The notes beneath the pieces were generated by a model, which did not search any database, had not been told where the DNA came from, and was given only the letters and a program-made list of their open reading frames with translations. Below, piece by piece: positions 13,911 through 63,005 of a stretch of DNA of 64,000 bases (positions within the stretch are counted from its first letter, which is position 1; each line of letters begins with the position of its first letter). A program made the translations under genes and the position numbers. Source of the stretch: a virus; the IMG/VR virus record IMGVR_UViG_3300042484_002457, positions 62,001-126,000 of that record. One strand, given 5' to 3'.

Positions 13911-13935
13911 GAGCCCCGCAAGGGGCTTTTCTTTT
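13911..13935 (+). terminator. Intrinsic terminator after the phasin-like gene
   Basis: GCCCC-GCAA-GGGGC stem-loop followed by TTTTCTTTT. The same hairpin ends pstS. Confidence 0.85.
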
Positions 13936-13942
13936 GGCAAAA

Positions 13943-13971
13943 TTGTTGTGTGTTTGTAACAAAATTGTAAC
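13943..13971 (+). promoter_or_regulatory. Pho box (PhoB operator) upstream of pstS
   Basis: Three 7-bp direct repeats at exact 11-bp steps: TTGTTGT (13943), TTGTAAC (13954) and TTGTAAC (13965), separated by 4-bp spacers. This is the architecture of a PhoB-binding Pho box, and it ends 11 bp before a TAAATA -10-like box. Confidence 0.75.
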
Positions 13972-13982
13972 ACATTTTGACC

Positions 13983-13989
13983 TAAATAC
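13983..13989 (+). promoter_or_regulatory. TAAATAC element: pstS -10 and/or late promoter
   Basis: Lies 11 bp after the Pho box and 29 nt before the GTG of pstS. Its position suits both a PhoB-dependent -10 box and the phage TAAATAC late motif, so the gene could be read by either route. Confidence 0.5.
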
Positions 13990-14017
13990 ATGTGTCACTA
14001 ACACAAGGAGACTCACA

Positions 14018-15022
14018 GTGAAAAAACTATTTGCTATTCTCGTAGCCGCAGTAACAATTTCTGCACAGGCTGCAGACATCACAGGGGCAGGTGCCACCTT
14101 CCCTTATCCAATCTATGCCAAGTGGGCTGAAGGCTACAAAAAAGCCACAGGCACTGGTATGAACTATCAAAGTATCGGATCATCGGGCGGCATTCGTCAA
14201 ATCAACGCAAAGACTGTGGACTTTGGTGCCACAGATGCTCCAGTAAGCGGTGAAAATTTGGACAAGCAAGGGCAAGTACAGTTTCCTGCAATCATTGGCG
14301 GAACAGTTCCTGTTGTTAATCTAGATGGTTTTAAACCAGGTGAACTACGCATCACAGGACCAGTCATGGCCGAAGTGTTCTTGGGCACGATCAATCGGTG
14401 GAATGATCCCAAACTTGTAGCATTGAATCCAGGTAAGACATTGCCCAACACAGAAATCACCATTGTACATCGTGCTGATGGTTCAGGTACAACATTCAAC
14501 TGGACAGACTATCTTGCCACAGTAAGCCCAGAGTGGCTACAACGTGTGGGTCGTGGTGCCGCAGTCAAGTGGCCAGCAGCCACGTCAGTAGGTGGCAAAG
14601 GCAACGAAGGTGTGGCTGCCAACGTGAACCGCATCAAAGGTTCAATTGGTTATGTAGAGTATGCTTATGTCAAGAAAAACAACATGACATTCCTGCAACT
14701 ACAAAATCGATCAGGACGGTATGTTAGTCCAGATGATTCAACATTTGCCGCAGCCGCAGATGGTGCTGATTGGTTCTCAGTTCCTGGTATGGGATTGAGC
14801 ATTGTGGATCAACGTAATCCTGCGGCTTGGCCAGTGAGTTCAGCAAGTTTTATCATCATGTACAAGACCCCTGCCAACAAGGCCAACAGTGACGAAGTGT
14901 TAAAATTCTTTGACTGGGCATTTAAGAATGGCAAGAAAGATGCTGCTGACTTGGACTATGTGGCATTACCTGACACGTTGACACGTCAGATCCGTGAGCG
15001 TGTTTGGACACAGATCAAGTAA
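14018..15022 (+). CDS. pstS: Phosphate-binding protein PstS
   Basis: 334 residues from GTG 14018 with AAGGAG nine nt upstream; an in-frame start at 13934 would run through the Pho box and is rejected. Signal peptide 1-19 (MKKLFAILVAAVTISAQAA). Then the PstS pattern: 'ITGAGATFPYPIYAKWAEGY', 'YQSIGSSGGIRQI', 'VDFGATDAPV', 'IVHRADGSGTTF'. Serves as periplasmic phosphate receptor for the host PstABC transporter. Phage pstS genes are known in T4-like cyanophages, where host PhoB control has been shown. Single-gene unit with its own terminator. Confidence 0.95.
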   Translation: MKKLFAILVAAVTISAQAADITGAGATFPYPIYAKWAEGYKKATGTGMNYQSIGSSGGIRQINAKTVDFGATDAPVSGENLDKQGQVQFPAIIGGTVPVVNLDGFKPGELRITGPVMAEVFLGTINRWNDPKLVALNPGKTLPNTEITIVHRADGSGTTFNWTDYLATVSPEWLQRVGRGAAVKWPAATSVGGKGNEGVAANVNRIKGSIGYVEYAYVKKNNMTFLQLQNRSGRYVSPDDSTFAAAADGADWFSVPGMGLSIVDQRNPAAWPVSSASFIIMYKTPANKANSDEVLKFFDWAFKNGKKDAADLDYVALPDTLTRQIRERVWTQIK

Positions 15023-15626: not shown

Positions 15627-15836
15627 ATGAACGAACGAATTAAGGAACTAGCCGATAAGGCAGGTGTACGAAGCATCTATTTCGAAGGCGAAAGTATTCA
15701 AAAACTTGCCGAGTTGATTGTGAAAGAATTTTCAAAGCAGGTTCAAATTGAAGGTCGCTTTGGGCTCGAACGAGACCAGACTTTGATTCGGCTTTGCTGT
15801 GAAAATGCCAAGAAACATTTCGGAGTTGAGGAATGA
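15627..15836 (+). CDS. HFGVEE-family small protein 1
   Basis: 69 residues; TAAGGAGTTGAT precedes the ATG. N-terminus MNERIKELADKAG, central 'KLAELIVKEF', C-terminus KKHFGVEE. Member of the paralogous family spread over 15.6-18.6 kb. The last codons (CATTTCGGAGTTGA...) contain the Shine-Dalgarno of the next gene, and the ATGA overlap couples the two. Function unknown; the family is common in marine and freshwater phages. Confidence 0.65.
   Translation: MNERIKELADKAGVRSIYFEGESIQKLAELIVKEFSKQVQIEGRFGLERDQTLIRLCCENAKKHFGVEE
15815..15829 (+). repeat. Embedded RBS repeat copy 1
   Basis: ACATTTCGGAGTTGA, exactly three nt before the ATG at 15833. First of seven identical 15-nt copies in this run. 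Confidence 0.8.
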
Positions 15837-16072
15837 ACGAACGAATTCGAGAACTTGCTGAACAGGCTGGATTTTATTTTTACGATATGCACGATATTGA
15901 CGGCCAAGACTTAGGTGAATCTATTGAAGCGGATAAGTGGTCTGTTGCCGAAAAGTTCGCCGAGTTGATTGTGAAAGAATGTCAAACGGTTGTTGAATGG
16001 GCAATCAGTGTAGATTCTACAATCGACCGAGTGCCTATGTTGATCCAAGAACATTTCGGAGTTGAAGAATGA
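15833..16072 (+). CDS. HFGVEE-family small protein 2
   Basis: 79 residues: MNERIRELAEQAGF, an aspartate-rich insert (DMHDIDGQDLG), 'EKFAELIVKEC', and EHFGVEE at the end. Overlaps both neighbours through ATGA. The start is fixed by the embedded GGAG seven nt upstream. Confidence 0.65.
   Translation: MNERIRELAEQAGFYFYDMHDIDGQDLGESIEADKWSVAEKFAELIVKECQTVVEWAISVDSTIDRVPMLIQEHFGVEE
16051..16065 (+). repeat. Embedded RBS repeat copy 2
   Basis: ACATTTCGGAGTTGA, three nt before the ATG at 16069. Confidence 0.8.
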
Positions 16073-16224
16073 ACCTACGTGAAATGATGACTGAGCGAGT
16101 CCTGTTTGCAGTTGATGAGGATGCCCTGGCCACAGAGTTCAGCATCAGCCCGGACGAGATTGCCACACTCAGCGATCTGGACTTCCTGGAACTGTTTGAA
16201 CAGGTCACTGGATTTAATGGTTAA
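16069..16224 (+). CDS. Small acidic protein, 51 aa
   Basis: Begins MNLREMMTERVLFAVDED and ends LFEQVTGFNG. Acidic and helical ('ISPDEIATLSDLDFLELFEQ'), not a family member of its neighbours although it uses the same embedded RBS and ATGA overlap. A recognisable short phage protein of unknown function. Confidence 0.6.
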   Translation: MNLREMMTERVLFAVDEDALATEFSISPDEIATLSDLDFLELFEQVTGFNG

Positions 16225-16250
16225 CAGAGCGTCCAAAAAGGAGTATTGAC

Positions 16251-16496
16251 ATGGGATGGGTAGTTTACGAGGTTGAGTCTGGTCGCATGATCAAGTATTA
16301 CAAAACGCCCAGCCCAGCCAAGTCTGAAGTAACACGACAGAAAAATTTTACCCGTGAAATGCAGGCTCAGTACCGTAACCATCGTGTTCGTGAGTACGCA
16401 GCCTGCTCATATCGTGACTATGAAGGTCAGTTGATGGGCCTGCGTGGTGCAGACTTTAAATTTTGGCAATTTTGCAACGCACAACCCAACACTTGA
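16251..16496 (+). CDS. Conserved small basic phage protein
   Basis: 81 residues, AAAGGAG eight nt before the ATG. Basic, starts MGWVVYEVESGRMIKYYKT and holds aromatic, Arg-rich segments ('RNHRVREYAACSYRDYEG'). Known as a recurring hypothetical in phage genomes; function unknown. Confidence 0.55.
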   Translation: MGWVVYEVESGRMIKYYKTPSPAKSEVTRQKNFTREMQAQYRNHRVREYAACSYRDYEGQLMGLRGADFKFWQFCNAQPNT

Positions 16497-16521
16497 CCAA
16501 TAATGCTTGTTTTGCTATAAT
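16493..16521 (+). promoter_or_regulatory. Sigma-70 promoter, TTGACCAATAA class
   Basis: TTGACC, 17 bp, TGC-TATAAT. The -35 box overlaps the stop of the upstream gene. The ATG at 16531 is ten nt after the -10 box, leaving a leader of only about 2-3 nt. Confidence 0.85.
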
Positions 16522-16530
16522 TACACTGTT

Positions 16531-16680
16531 ATGAAGCCCATATCTTTTGTACTGCAACCACCACGTCAGCGTCGACATCAAGCACTGTTTGATTCGGACT
16601 TGCCGTTTCGTGGCCGTGCGGAACAGCCCAAAACAGTGTACAAACGCCAACCCAAACACCGAAAGACTGAACAGGAATAA
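16531..16680 (+). CDS. Small very basic protein, 49 aa, near-leaderless
   Basis: MKPISFVLQPPRQRRHQALF... ending HRKTEQE. Rich in Arg, Lys, Gln and Pro, so nucleic-acid or protein binding is plausible. The start follows directly from the promoter at 16493-16521. Its last codons (ACAGGAATAA) provide the Shine-Dalgarno of the next gene. Confidence 0.5.
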   Translation: MKPISFVLQPPRQRRHQALFDSDLPFRGRAEQPKTVYKRQPKHRKTEQE

Positions 16681-16681
16681 C

Positions 16682-16909
16682 ATGACTGTACCAAACGAAC
16701 GCACCCGAGCAGTGATACATACCGAGCGGTTCTTGAGTGATCTCCTGGACCCAAAAAAGACGCCGCGAGTACCTCGTGCCATTCGACAACGTGCCAGTTC
16801 ATTGTTGAGACATTACCCCGGTGAGTTCCACATGAACACAATTGCGGATCGCGAAGATGCTGCTGATCACAGTTTGTCAATCAAGGTTTTTGGAAAGAGC
16901 TGGTCATGA
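16682..16909 (+). CDS. BPSL0761-like small protein
   Basis: 75 residues from ATG 16682 (ACAGGA upstream). 'NERTRAVIHTERFLSDLLDPK', then 'RVPRAIRQRASSLLRHYPGEF', matching the BPSL0761 family first named in Burkholderia and seen in phages and plasmids of proteobacteria. Function unknown. Overlaps the next gene by ATGA. Confidence 0.6.
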   Translation: MTVPNERTRAVIHTERFLSDLLDPKKTPRVPRAIRQRASSLLRHYPGEFHMNTIADREDAADHSLSIKVFGKSWS

Positions 16910-17145
16910 ACAAACGAATTCGAGAACTTCATATACAGGCGCAACAAGAGGCATGGAATGAACCAATCGATATTGAAAATTGTGCAGTAGAAGATATAAA
17001 AGGATTCAGTCAACAAGTTTACGAAAAGTTCGCTGAGTTGATTGTTCTCGATACAATTAAAAATTGTCGTGATATGTTTATGGTGAATAGTGTTAGTTGG
17101 AATCTCTTAAATGAGAAACTAGAACATTTCGGAGTTGAAGAATGA
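16906..17145 (+). CDS. HFGVEE-family small protein 3
   Basis: 79 residues: MNKRIRELHIQAQQEA, 'QQVYEKFAELIVLDTIKN', C-terminal EHFGVEE. This copy has diverged in the middle but keeps both ends and the central FAELIV helix. ATGA overlaps on both sides. Confidence 0.65.
   Translation: MNKRIRELHIQAQQEAWNEPIDIENCAVEDIKGFSQQVYEKFAELIVLDTIKNCRDMFMVNSVSWNLLNEKLEHFGVEE
17124..17138 (+). repeat. Embedded RBS repeat copy 3
   Basis: ACATTTCGGAGTTGA, three nt before the ATG at 17142. Confidence 0.8.
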
Positions 17146-17372
17146 ACCAAGTTTTAGTAAACCTGCTGTCTAATCGAGCAGTAAGATTGGGTGAGCACTC
17201 TTGGCAATGGGCCGAGAAAAAGACTGGCAATCCTTCCTTGAAAAATTCTGTGACTTCTCGTATGTTTCGGTCCGATCTTGTAGAAGTGGTCGGTGCAGAA
17301 ATGAAACTTACTGCTATGGGTCGTATACAAGCAGAACAACATTTCGGAGTTGAGGAATGTTTAAGAAGCTAA
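17142..17372 (+). CDS. HFGVEE-tailed small protein with read-through end
   Basis: 76 residues, N-terminus MNQVLVNLLSNRAVRLG unrelated to the family, but ending EQHFGVEE followed by CLRS. The extra residues arise because the downstream gene begins ATGT instead of ATGA, so the usual TGA is missing. This suggests the tail and RBS unit was joined to a different gene body. Confidence 0.6.
   Translation: MNQVLVNLLSNRAVRLGEHSWQWAEKKTGNPSLKNSVTSRMFRSDLVEVVGAEMKLTAMGRIQAEQHFGVEECLRS
17339..17353 (+). repeat. Embedded RBS repeat copy 4
   Basis: ACATTTCGGAGTTGA, three nt before the ATG at 17357; here the overlap is ATGT. Confidence 0.8.
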
Positions 17373-17587
17373 TTGACATATTCAAAGAGCCCGAGCATGG
17401 CATAGTGAAGTTGAGTTTTATTGCCCTGGACGAGAATGGAGAACCCTATGAGGATATTGCAACAATGCCATATCATACACAATACATTCAAAGTGATGTG
17501 GAAGCAAAGTTTGTGGCATTCATGAGTTTACGGAATCACCGAGTTGTTGAAATCACAATACTAGAAGTAATTAAAACAAGTGGATAA
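17357..17587 (+). CDS. Small protein, paralogue of 25856-26119
   Basis: 76 residues: MFKKLIDIFKEPEHGIVKLS, 'FIALDENGEPYEDIATMPY', 'VVEITILEV'. The protein at 25856 matches in order ('GTVKLKFIAYDDA', 'EPYEDVATIPYEGKYQ', 'VVEMTVIEHV'). Predicted mostly beta. Function unknown. Confidence 0.6.
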   Translation: MFKKLIDIFKEPEHGIVKLSFIALDENGEPYEDIATMPYHTQYIQSDVEAKFVAFMSLRNHRVVEITILEVIKTSG

Positions 17588-17591
17588 TATA

Positions 17592-17801
17592 ATGAACGAA
17601 CGAATTCAAAAACTTGCTAGAGAGGCTGCTTTGGCCGAAAGCTGGGGACCCGGAGTTTGGCAAACCACATTTACTGAAAAGTTCGCCGAGTTGATTGTGA
17701 AGGAAACCATGCAGGTTGTTGCTAACCAATTGCCTAGCAATCAGTATCTTGATGTAGCCCATGCAGTAATTGAGCATTATAAGGATGACGATGTTACTTG
17801 A
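17592..17801 (+). CDS. HFGVEE-family small protein 4 with altered end
   Basis: 69 residues from ATG 17592 (MNERIQKLAREAALAES; the in-frame ATG at 17580 lacks support). Has 'EKFAELIVKETMQVV' but ends 'IEHYKDDDVT', so the usual HFGVEE end is replaced. The lost end may be the stray copy at 17905-17919. Confidence 0.6.
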   Translation: MNERIQKLAREAALAESWGPGVWQTTFTEKFAELIVKETMQVVANQLPSNQYLDVAHAVIEHYKDDDVT

Positions 17802-17901
17802 AATTTTACTGTTTGTTATTGGAGTAATTGGTTTGATTTTGCTCTTTCGTTGGGTAGACAAGGTTAGAACCGATCCTTTAGACTACCCTCAGGATTATTA
17901 A
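17791..17901 (+). CDS. Single-span membrane peptide, 36 aa
   Basis: MLLEILLFVIGVIGLILLF followed by RWVDKVRTDPLDYPQDY. One transmembrane helix with a positively charged cytoplasmic flank and acidic tail. It overlaps the end of the preceding gene by 11 bp. No strong Shine-Dalgarno beyond AAGGATGACG. Possible small phage membrane effector. Confidence 0.45.
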   Translation: MLLEILLFVIGVIGLILLFRWVDKVRTDPLDYPQDY

Positions 17902-17904
17902 GAA

Positions 17905-17919
17905 ACATTTCGGAGTTGA
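17905..17919 (+). repeat. Embedded RBS repeat copy 5, outside any gene
   Basis: ACATTTCGGAGTTGA lies between genes. Its frame would read RIIKKHFGVEE but is closed by TAG at 17879-17881. It still stands three nt before an ATG (17923), so only its RBS role remains. Confidence 0.8.
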
Positions 17920-17922
17920 AGA

Positions 17923-18090
17923 ATGAAAATAACCATGACAGGTGAGCACGAAGGTAAATCTGTAACGATTGCCGTTTGGGAATATTCTCCCGAGATTGTT
18001 AAAGGCAATCCTATCGAAGTAGAAGAAAAATTATGGCTTGCTATCAAACAGCAAATGACCCACTACATTAAGAAGGTGATTGAAGAATGA
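17923..18090 (+). CDS. Small protein, 55 aa
   Basis: MKITMTGEHEGKSVTIAVWE..., ending THYIKKVIEE. Start set by the GGAG of repeat copy 5; its TGA overlaps the next ATG. Mixed charge; no family recognised. Confidence 0.5.
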   Translation: MKITMTGEHEGKSVTIAVWEYSPEIVKGNPIEVEEKLWLAIKQQMTHYIKKVIEE

Positions 18091-18365
18091 ACAAACAACT
18101 GATTAGAGATTTAGCCATCACAGGTGGCATTTATGATTGTATTTGTGATCCTTACGACAAGTTAAAGAACGGTGATTACTACAGTAGTGTAATGGTTGAT
18201 TTGGAGCGTTTCGCTGAGAAGATTGTGAAAGAATGTACTGAACAAATCAAGACACAGGGTATCAGCGCCTCTAGTGAAGATTATGGCGATTATGAAATAG
18301 GATTTAACGCAGGGTTATTTCATGCTCTCTACACAATCAAACAACATTTCGGAGTTGAAGAATGA
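18087..18365 (+). CDS. HFGVEE-family small protein 5
   Basis: 92 residues: MNKQLIRDLAITGGIYDC, 'ERFAEKIVKECTEQIKTQG', C-terminal KQHFGVEE. The longest member here, with an acidic insert (SSEDYGDYEIG). ATGA overlaps at both ends. Confidence 0.65.
   Translation: MNKQLIRDLAITGGIYDCICDPYDKLKNGDYYSSVMVDLERFAEKIVKECTEQIKTQGISASSEDYGDYEIGFNAGLFHALYTIKQHFGVEE
18344..18358 (+). repeat. Embedded RBS repeat copy 6
   Basis: ACATTTCGGAGTTGA, three nt before the ATG at 18362. Confidence 0.8.
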
Positions 18366-18592
18366 ACGAACGAATTAAACAAATCACAGGACAGGTACTA
18401 GATGAAATAGTGCCCGAGACTTGGGTAGCGTTGGGCTACGACAAAATCAAAGAGATTCAAAACCGCACAGCCGAGTTGATTGTTCGGGAATGTGCCAAGT
18501 TTCTAGATGAGAATTCTGGCTATGATGAATGCAACAATTCTTGGCATCCTGAACCAGAAGATTTATTACAACATTTCGGAGTTGAACTATGA
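18362..18592 (+). CDS. HFGVEE-family small protein 6
   Basis: 76 residues: MNERIKQITGQVLDEIVPET, 'NRTAELIVRECAKFLDEN', end LLQHFGVEL. The final Glu is replaced by Leu because the junction reads ...GAACTATGA. Coupled to the next gene by ATGA. Confidence 0.65.
   Translation: MNERIKQITGQVLDEIVPETWVALGYDKIKEIQNRTAELIVRECAKFLDENSGYDECNNSWHPEPEDLLQHFGVEL
18571..18585 (+). repeat. Embedded RBS repeat copy 7
   Basis: ACATTTCGGAGTTGA, three nt before the ATG at 18589. Confidence 0.8.
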
Positions 18593-61858: not shown

Positions 61859-62256
61859 CCAAAGCAGCGTATTCTGCACACAAAATCAACCGACATCAGT
61901 TGCAACCCATCAAGGATGCAGTGATTGTGAGCGACATGGTTTTTGATGAACGACTCAGCACTGGTGGTATTGTGCTGTTAAACGACAATGGTAAAAGCAG
62001 TGGTATTCGGCCCCGCTGGGGCCGTGTGTATGCAGTGGGCCCTGACCAGTCTGGAGTGCGTGTAGGCGAATGGGTTTGTATAGAACATGGTCGTTGGACT
62101 CGAGGTCTTGAAGTTGAAGACGAAGCTGGCAAACATACACTGCGCAGAGTTGATCCCAAGGATATCTTGATGAGTGCAGATGAGCGGCCAGATGATGTGA
62201 CTTTCTCATCAGCCATTCACGTAGAAGCCAAACCCAGCCACATGCAGCACAACTGA
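61855..62256 (+). CDS. GroES/gp31-like co-chaperonin
   Basis: 133 residues, ATGA. GroES pattern: 'LQPIKDAVIVSDMVFDERLS', 'TGGIVLLNDNGKSSGIRPRW', 'GRVYAVGPDQSGVRVGEWVC', 'HTLRRVDPKDILMSADE'. The mobile loop (about residues 33-50) ends with the hydrophobic 'GGIVLL' that contacts GroEL. In T4, gp31 replaces GroES for folding the major capsid protein. Longer than GroES by a C-terminal tail of ~25 residues. Confidence 0.82.
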   Translation: MTKAAYSAHKINRHQLQPIKDAVIVSDMVFDERLSTGGIVLLNDNGKSSGIRPRWGRVYAVGPDQSGVRVGEWVCIEHGRWTRGLEVEDEAGKHTLRRVDPKDILMSADERPDDVTFSSAIHVEAKPSHMQHN

Positions 62257-62612: not shown

Positions 62613-62790
62613 ACCTCGTCCTTTAAGTATTCCAATTGTGGAATTGAACAATAGACTAGATACAATCTTTGGTGAAAAGCCAAAGAAACAGCGTTGGATA
62701 CCACCAGCATTGCCCGAAGACATGCAAGGTATCAAAAGCTCGTTTGAGCAGCAACTGGGTGTGAATAAACTTCCACCTGGGCGCACATGA
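62596..62790 (+). CDS. Small proline-rich T4-type protein
   Basis: 64 residues; GGAGAAATAGAA before the ATG. 'MSKGSRPRPLSIPIVELNNR', 'LDTIFGEKPKKQRWIPPALP'. Known as a hypothetical in T4-like genomes. Confidence 0.55.
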   Translation: MSKGSRPRPLSIPIVELNNRLDTIFGEKPKKQRWIPPALPEDMQGIKSSFEQQLGVNKLPPGRT

Positions 62791-63005
62791 AATTATTCAA
62801 CCAGGTATATCTAGGAATGAATCCCACAATACAACAACTGATGCAACAGGCAGGCACTGACACCAGCGGCAAATGGATGAGTATAGACAATGCCGAAAAG
62901 TTTGCTCAGTTGGTAATTGCAGCGTATAATAAAGAACTTGACGAGTCTTGTCAGGAAAGCAAAAGCAAACTTGGCTACAGCCGAATTGGATTGGAAAACG
63001 TATGA
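62787..63005 (+). CDS. Small protein distantly related to the HFGVEE family
   Basis: 72 residues, ATGA. 'IQQLMQQAGTDTSGKWMSID' and 'NAEKFAQLVIAAYNKELDES' align with the central 'EKFAELIVKEC' of the small genes at 15.6-18.6 kb, but the HFGVEE end and embedded RBS are absent (end 'YSRIGLENV'). Confidence 0.5.
   Translation: MKLFNQVYLGMNPTIQQLMQQAGTDTSGKWMSIDNAEKFAQLVIAAYNKELDESCQESKSKLGYSRIGLENV

Follow-up and report, generated by a model that had tools for sequence, protein, structure and literature searches.

It is an old question whether phage mosaicism arises by exchange at short conserved sequences or by random illegitimate joins, and such sequences are reportedly absent at most boundaries. 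The PeSL promoter-terminator cassettes of T4-like phages (Arbiol 2010 and Comeau 2014, as summarized in PMC4503421) lie at gene borders as short regulatory repeats, composed of an early promoter and a stem-loop terminator, and are tied to the shuffling of accessory genes. In mycobacteriophages of Cluster K, Start-Associated Sequences (SAS) with a Shine-Dalgarno (SD) core are repeated just upstream of the starts of genes from different families (PMC3203893), and at the domain level shuffling has been described for receptor-binding proteins, endolysins and replication proteins of phages (Smug et al., 2023, PMC10684548). Furthermore, modular evolution by general recombination at short conserved boundary sequences is an idea cited in PMC3029335. 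Here, we analyse the repeat ACATTTCGGAGTTGA in region 15627-18592 of a stretch of 64,000 nucleotides (nt), in the following called the window, which comprises positions 62,001 to 126,000 of the virus record IMGVR_UViG_3300042484_002457. This repeat forms the 3' block in a large family of genes for small proteins of uncultivated phages, and these genes seem to be exchanged at such blocks.

Mosaic genes and breakpoints at short coding blocks

The window contains seven exact copies of ACATTTCGGAGTTGA, all on the plus strand (15815, 16051, 17124, 17339, 17905, 18344, and 18571), and the whole virus record of 209,543 nt has no further exact copy. Since shuffled sequence yields a mean of only 1.97 matches even when up to three mismatches are allowed, seven exact copies are far beyond chance. 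As a preliminary description of this DNA had noted, an ATG follows three nt after each copy (15833, 16069, 17142, 17357, 17923, 18362, and 18589), and the seven genes started by them fall within 2.8 kb. These starts had also been called consecutive, which is not the case, as the starts 16251, 16906, 17592, and 18087 are interspersed without a copy. Five of the seven copies form the in-frame end of an open reading frame (ORF) and encode HFGVEE or HFGVEL.

The proteins of the family have about 60-100 amino acids (aa) and follow a common plan of N block (MNERIRELAEQ), cassette V1, M block (EKFAELIVREC), cassette V2, and C block (HFGVEE), the last of which corresponds to the repeat. The blocks consist of roughly 20-40 nt of near-identical DNA, and the N block of a gene follows directly on the C block of the gene before it. 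A scan of IMG/VR gave at least 486 relatives, and 525 distinct members from 258 loci (cited below by their L numbers) and the window were split into N, V1, M, V2, and C.

When V1 or V2 was counted as common to a pair of members at 60% or more, V2 was unrelated in 196 of the 214 pairs sharing V1, V1 was unrelated in 184 of the 206 pairs sharing V2, and both were similar in 14 pairs. Likewise, 75 of 81 multi-member V1 clusters have at least two V2 partners and 79 of 86 multi-member V2 clusters at least two V1 partners. As a control, 2,209 further small ORFs of these loci were likewise cut into halves, and taking them from there lowers but does not remove the bias of selecting loci by pattern. 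Here, 7 pairs with an unrelated second half stand against 408 with both halves similar, and 13 against 412 when starting from the other half (p below 1e-100 for half-switching in the family versus the control). Control ORFs seldom switch halves, and therefore general phage evolution and assembly both fail to explain the mosaics. Where the M block of a mosaic pair begins or ends, nucleotide identity drops from roughly 0.85 to 0.3. The ratio of non-synonymous to synonymous change (dN/dS) is 0.11 for V1 and 0.14 for V2, which marks both as selected coding sequence, and the cassettes are old, with a proportion of synonymous differences (pS) of about 0.5 in mosaic pairs. These comparisons show V1 and V2 to be combined almost freely, and most genes appear as new combinations of old cassettes.

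The breakpoints point to the same blocks. They were taken from high-scoring segment pairs (HSPs) of at least 88% between contigs, using internal ends near the arrays. Out of 313 such ends, 204 (65%) fall inside a block compared to 19% expected; the M block holds 72 of them, the N block 70, the C block 51, and C+N 11. As the M block sits in the middle of the gene, gene borders alone cannot explain these breakpoints. Both ends lie in blocks for 74 of 177 fully internal HSPs, so that the same short DNA bounds the exchanged segments. At C-block junctions with similar upstream DNA the downstream DNA is unrelated in 83 cases and similar in one, whereas the corresponding numbers at ordinary gene junctions are 107 and 72 (p = 9e-14, with pairs that are not independent). 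In the window, three tracts on the plus strand run from block to block with unrelated DNA outside. The first (15950..17359, 1410 bp, 97.5% to L008 6085-7494) reaches from the M block of the second family member (15950..15982) to the fourth C-block copy (17339..17359). The second (17676..17927, 252 bp, 99.2% to L013 6118-6369) extends from the M block of the fourth member (17676..17708) to the fifth copy (17905..17925), and the third (18080..18241, 162 bp, 94.4% to L160 6836-6997) leads from an N block to the M block of the fifth member (18204..18236). With the HSP ends in blocks, the switching at C-block junctions, and the block edges of these tracts, the earlier proposal that genes are shuffled at the repeat unit is well supported.

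We consider it quite likely that V1 and V2 cassettes, together with adjoining genes, are exchanged at the short N, M, and C blocks and that the C block adds a start site. Exchange could proceed by homologous recombination or annealing between co-infecting phages, and it would probably rely on the UvsX-like system of the phage itself, as the virus record encodes a UvsX-like recombinase together with a T4-like clamp loader. Any gene joined after a C block would receive a ready start site from it. Genes with diverged blocks would drop out of exchange, which may keep the blocks alike, and this likeness may be strengthened by selection that acts on protein motifs and start site. In this way, shuffling could supply a variety of small proteins that help the phage to deal with its host. 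A more far-reaching form of this idea, which we put forward only tentatively and consider rather doubtful, is a combinatorial diversification of proteins, in which three coding blocks would stay alike as joints for recombination, partly because shuffling itself is selected, phage populations would draw small host-interaction proteins from two pools of cassettes, and a built-in start site would let every join be expressed.

Probable start-site role and DNA conservation of the C block

The GGAG of the C block lies 7 nt ahead of the ATG and inside the upstream gene, a distance that is matched in 306 of 354 coupled tails, and which is within the 5-10 nt spacing of an embedded SD sequence with ATGA-type overlap. 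The natural exceptions are of special value here. The HFGVE frame accounts for 436 of 460 distinct C-block copies. One of the others comes from an unrelated contig (L143) that matches by chance; the 23 left, of which 15 lie outside any ORF and 8 use the frame that ends with TFRS and a stop, all precede an ATG, mostly at 11 nt distance, so that the start-site role alone suffices for the block to be present. Furthermore, 379 of 390 coupled tails have GGA as their Gly codon. Synonymous change at a position where the downstream gene still needs its ribosome binding site (RBS), named beforehand as the observation that would speak against such a role, is therefore almost absent (11 of 390). Position and exceptions thus show that the C block carries the putative SD sequence and the ATGA overlap of the next gene, as had been suggested. 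GGAGTTGA was also considered as the usual RBS of this phage, which was ruled out, as none of the 80 main ORFs has it. A second repeated gene-border unit is a conserved sigma-70-like promoter (TTGACY..AAA..TNCCCAATTTGCTATAATA) with nine plus-strand copies in the window (15079, 15373, 24855, 25226, 26158, 39097, 40022, 40314, and 40869), most of which are followed by a CAGGAG-type RBS and a small gene.

It could be argued that selection for a portable RBS-plus-overlap unit would by itself account for the conserved DNA, with the peptide as a by-product. The out-of-frame copies ahead of an ATG and the fact that GGA is the most conserved synonymous choice are in favor of this. However, GGA is kept where no start follows. 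By an automatic rule, tails without a downstream start have GGA in 35 of 37 cases, some short-ORF tails included, and uncoupled tails chosen by eye (TAA or TAG stop, no adjacent ATG) have GGA in 17 and GGG in 2 of 19 cases, which does not differ significantly from the coupled tails (p = 0.12) but does so from the background of 0.26 (p = 1e-8). Moreover, the same DNA conservation and breakpoints are seen in the N and M blocks, which do not serve as RBS, the His codon of the C block is CAT in 97% compared to 58-67% in the background although it lies outside the SD, and the HFG residues are constrained at non-synonymous sites. In the Phe codon the third base is free (322 C, 178 T), whereas the first two bases are kept in 98-99%, giving 178 synonymous changes versus about 22 non-synonymous ones. 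Start-site role and peptide are both constrained in the C block according to these codon patterns, and the peptide is accordingly more than a by-product. Thus, of the portable unit proposed in the preliminary description, the SD position and the shuffling of genes at the unit hold, but the RBS is not the whole reason for the conservation, and we regard the RBS unit as sole explanation as unlikely. Some HFGVE tails without a downstream start lead directly into TAACCCTWSAGGTTGACA.., a small stem with promoter-like sequence (L031:5697, L031:6628, L085:7450, L328:6038, and L355:3763).

Conservation at the DNA level extends to all three blocks. The codon choice in N, M, and C compared to the background is AAC 0.87/0.34, CGA 0.91/0.23, AAG 0.89/0.31, GCC 0.84/0.19, GAG 0.89/0.20, TTG 0.89/0.28, and GGA 0.98/0.26. 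Wholly unrelated members differ at synonymous block positions by 0.29 (M), 0.26 (N), and 0.17 (C), and members with a common cassette by 0.15-0.31, i.e., at the same level, compared with 0.42-0.46 for the cassettes and 0.56 for random codons of the same residue. Since block differences are equal in unrelated and related members, the block sequence is independent of the cassettes that it flanks. This would be expected for a common exchanged pool, and strong selection on the DNA would look alike.

Family members in the window and their relatives

Six paralogous ORFs of the region follow the plan MNERIRELA - variable - EKFAELIVKEC - variable - HFGVEE, the fourth without HFGVE; all are on the plus strand, as are their blocks, and a profile search of the virus record found these six and two distant members. 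Member 1 (15627..15836, 69 aa, MNERIKELADKAG..QKLAELIVKEF..KKHFGVEE) follows TTAAGGAGTTGATATG, an intergenic RBS that shares the GGAGTTGA core. Its M block is at 15699..15731, which like those of members 3 and 6 was read from the sequence, and its tail codons in the first C-block copy (15815..15835) form the predicted SD of the gene at 15833 with an ATGA overlap. Member 2 (15833..16072, 79 aa) has a V2 that is protein-identical to that of L008:6001-6204, with an unrelated V1, and the C-block copy at 16051..16071 as putative SD of the gene at 16069. In member 3 (16906..17145, 79 aa, MNKRIRELHIQAQ..EKFAELIVLDT..EHFGVEE; M block 17023..17055), both V1 and V2 are found elsewhere with different partners (L162; L039, L077), and the copy at 17124..17144 would serve as SD of the gene at 17142.

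This gene (17142..17372, plus strand) has no M motif and ends in HFGVEECLRS, because the tract shared with L008 ends at the copy at 17339, the predicted SD of the gene at 17357, and the window continues with ATGTTTAAG. L008 continues with ATGAAATGG, and the downstream genes differ from the ATG on. As the next gene in the window begins with ATGT and the same upstream gene in L008 ends with HFGVEE and a stop, the earlier explanation of the CLRS run-on by this join proved correct. Read-through fusions of a family member past HFGVE into another ORF also occur naturally elsewhere (L043:1813-2440, L085:6370-6727, and L036:5997-6255).

Member 4 (17592..17801, 69 aa) carries the tail HYKDDDVT in place of HFGVEE. 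Its V2 is 97% identical to that of L013, where it has another V1, and is joined to HFGVEE in L192. Downstream, the copy at 17905 lies in no open frame and still precedes an ATG as the likely SD of the gene at 17923, in agreement with what had been observed before; L013 has the same relic upstream of this tract end and another gene downstream. The V1 of member 5 (18087..18365, 92 aa) is 96% identical to L160 and 74% to L261, with an unrelated V2 in both, and the copy at 18344..18364 is the probable SD of the gene at 18362. This is member 6 (18362..18592, 76 aa, tail HFGVEL; M block 18461..18493), whose V2 end recurs in L077 ahead of another downstream gene, and whose copy at 18571..18591 is the predicted SD of the gene at 18589. 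A distant family member (62787..63005, plus strand) lies upstream of the clamp-loader gene and has a V1 of the recurrent AGTDTSGKW type without HFGVE tail. Upstream of the region, the window contains a phage-borne gene for a PstS-like phosphate-binding protein (13934-15022, phrog_5385).

The proteins are probably helical, with three helices in the predicted structure at a mean predicted local distance difference test score (pLDDT) of 83. No significant match was found in Pfam, PHROGs, or PDB, the latter searched by sequence and by fold; in PHROGs, searched with single proteins and with 79 members, the best E-value for the 79 was 4e-4, in 2 of 79, and none was convincing. Searching phage records by tblastn gave nothing convincing, with two weak phage matches for a consensus-like query, and sequenced phage isolates hold almost no relatives. 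In predicted structure, the family comes closest to uncharacterized proteins from “uncultured Caudovirales phage” (BFVD A0A6J5KQR9, A0A6J7WSW9, and others), which resemble the family in predicted fold at 25-35% identity and probably belong to it. These are likewise unannotated, with no Pfam family, no PHROG of convincing score, and no solved relative. In bacterial genomes the family was found only in eight short contigs of metagenome-assembled genomes, which are probably phage DNA binned with the host.

Origin of the joins and comparison with known systems

The standard account of most phage mosaic boundaries (PMC3029335) is that illegitimate recombination can take place anywhere and that selection for working, in-frame products then spares joins only at tolerated sites, such as domain edges and gene ends; the joins of the family do sit where the proteins could tolerate them. 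However, the exact register is kept, the synonymous-site conservation of the blocks is not needed by this model, switching is far less common at ordinary junctions of the same contigs, and half-switching is almost absent in other small ORFs, which makes such an origin very unlikely. That the mosaics are chimeras of metagenome assembly at short shared repeats is highly improbable, since, even though the blocks are short repeats common to many phages and most members come from single contigs, the shared cassettes are deeply diverged, unlike chimeras, 41 combinations (41 of 525 members) were seen in at least two separate metagenomes, the blocks are mostly non-identical over typical assembly k-mers, and other small ORFs of the same loci behave otherwise.

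Some points nevertheless weigh against exchange at the blocks, which remains our favored explanation. With 20-40 nt, the blocks are close to the minimum length for RecA-type exchange, and the exchange is deduced from joins and the recombinase from gene content. The pair counts are mutually dependent, and replication across metagenomes holds for at least one member in 68 of 380 mosaic pairs, but for both members in only 4. The data come almost entirely from metagenome contigs, in which some joins may be assembly chimeras, and the loci were selected by patterns favoring the C block and the M motif. Finally, the C block is not uniformly frozen in its DNA, because the third base of the Phe codon varies.

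Among the known systems, the PeSLs resemble the blocks as short gene-border repeats tied to accessory-gene shuffling. According to the summary in PMC4503421, they are regulatory promoter/stem-loop elements, whereas the blocks of the family are coding, bring a start site instead of a promoter, and one of them is internal to the gene; the C block runs directly into the ATG and has neither an early promoter nor a stem-loop terminator. The SAS are similar to the C block in their SD core ahead of starts of different families and in a conservation beyond what pairing with rRNA fully explains, but they consist of the 13-bp sequence GGGATAGGAGCCC, for which ACATTTCGGAGTTGA stands here, and they are not described as a shared protein tail or exchange point in PMC3203893. 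A start site carried inside a protein tail would be a way for newly joined genes to be expressed. The fragments common to otherwise unrelated proteins are shared with the domain shuffling of Smug et al. (2023), which concerns domains, whereas here small proteins are split at a fixed DNA block. Closest is the idea of modules exchanged at short conserved boundary sequences (PMC3029335), with the difference that in this family the blocks are known by sequence and occur in hundreds of instances, one of the three being intragenic, so that the family offers hundreds of joins for a direct test of both models of phage mosaicism.

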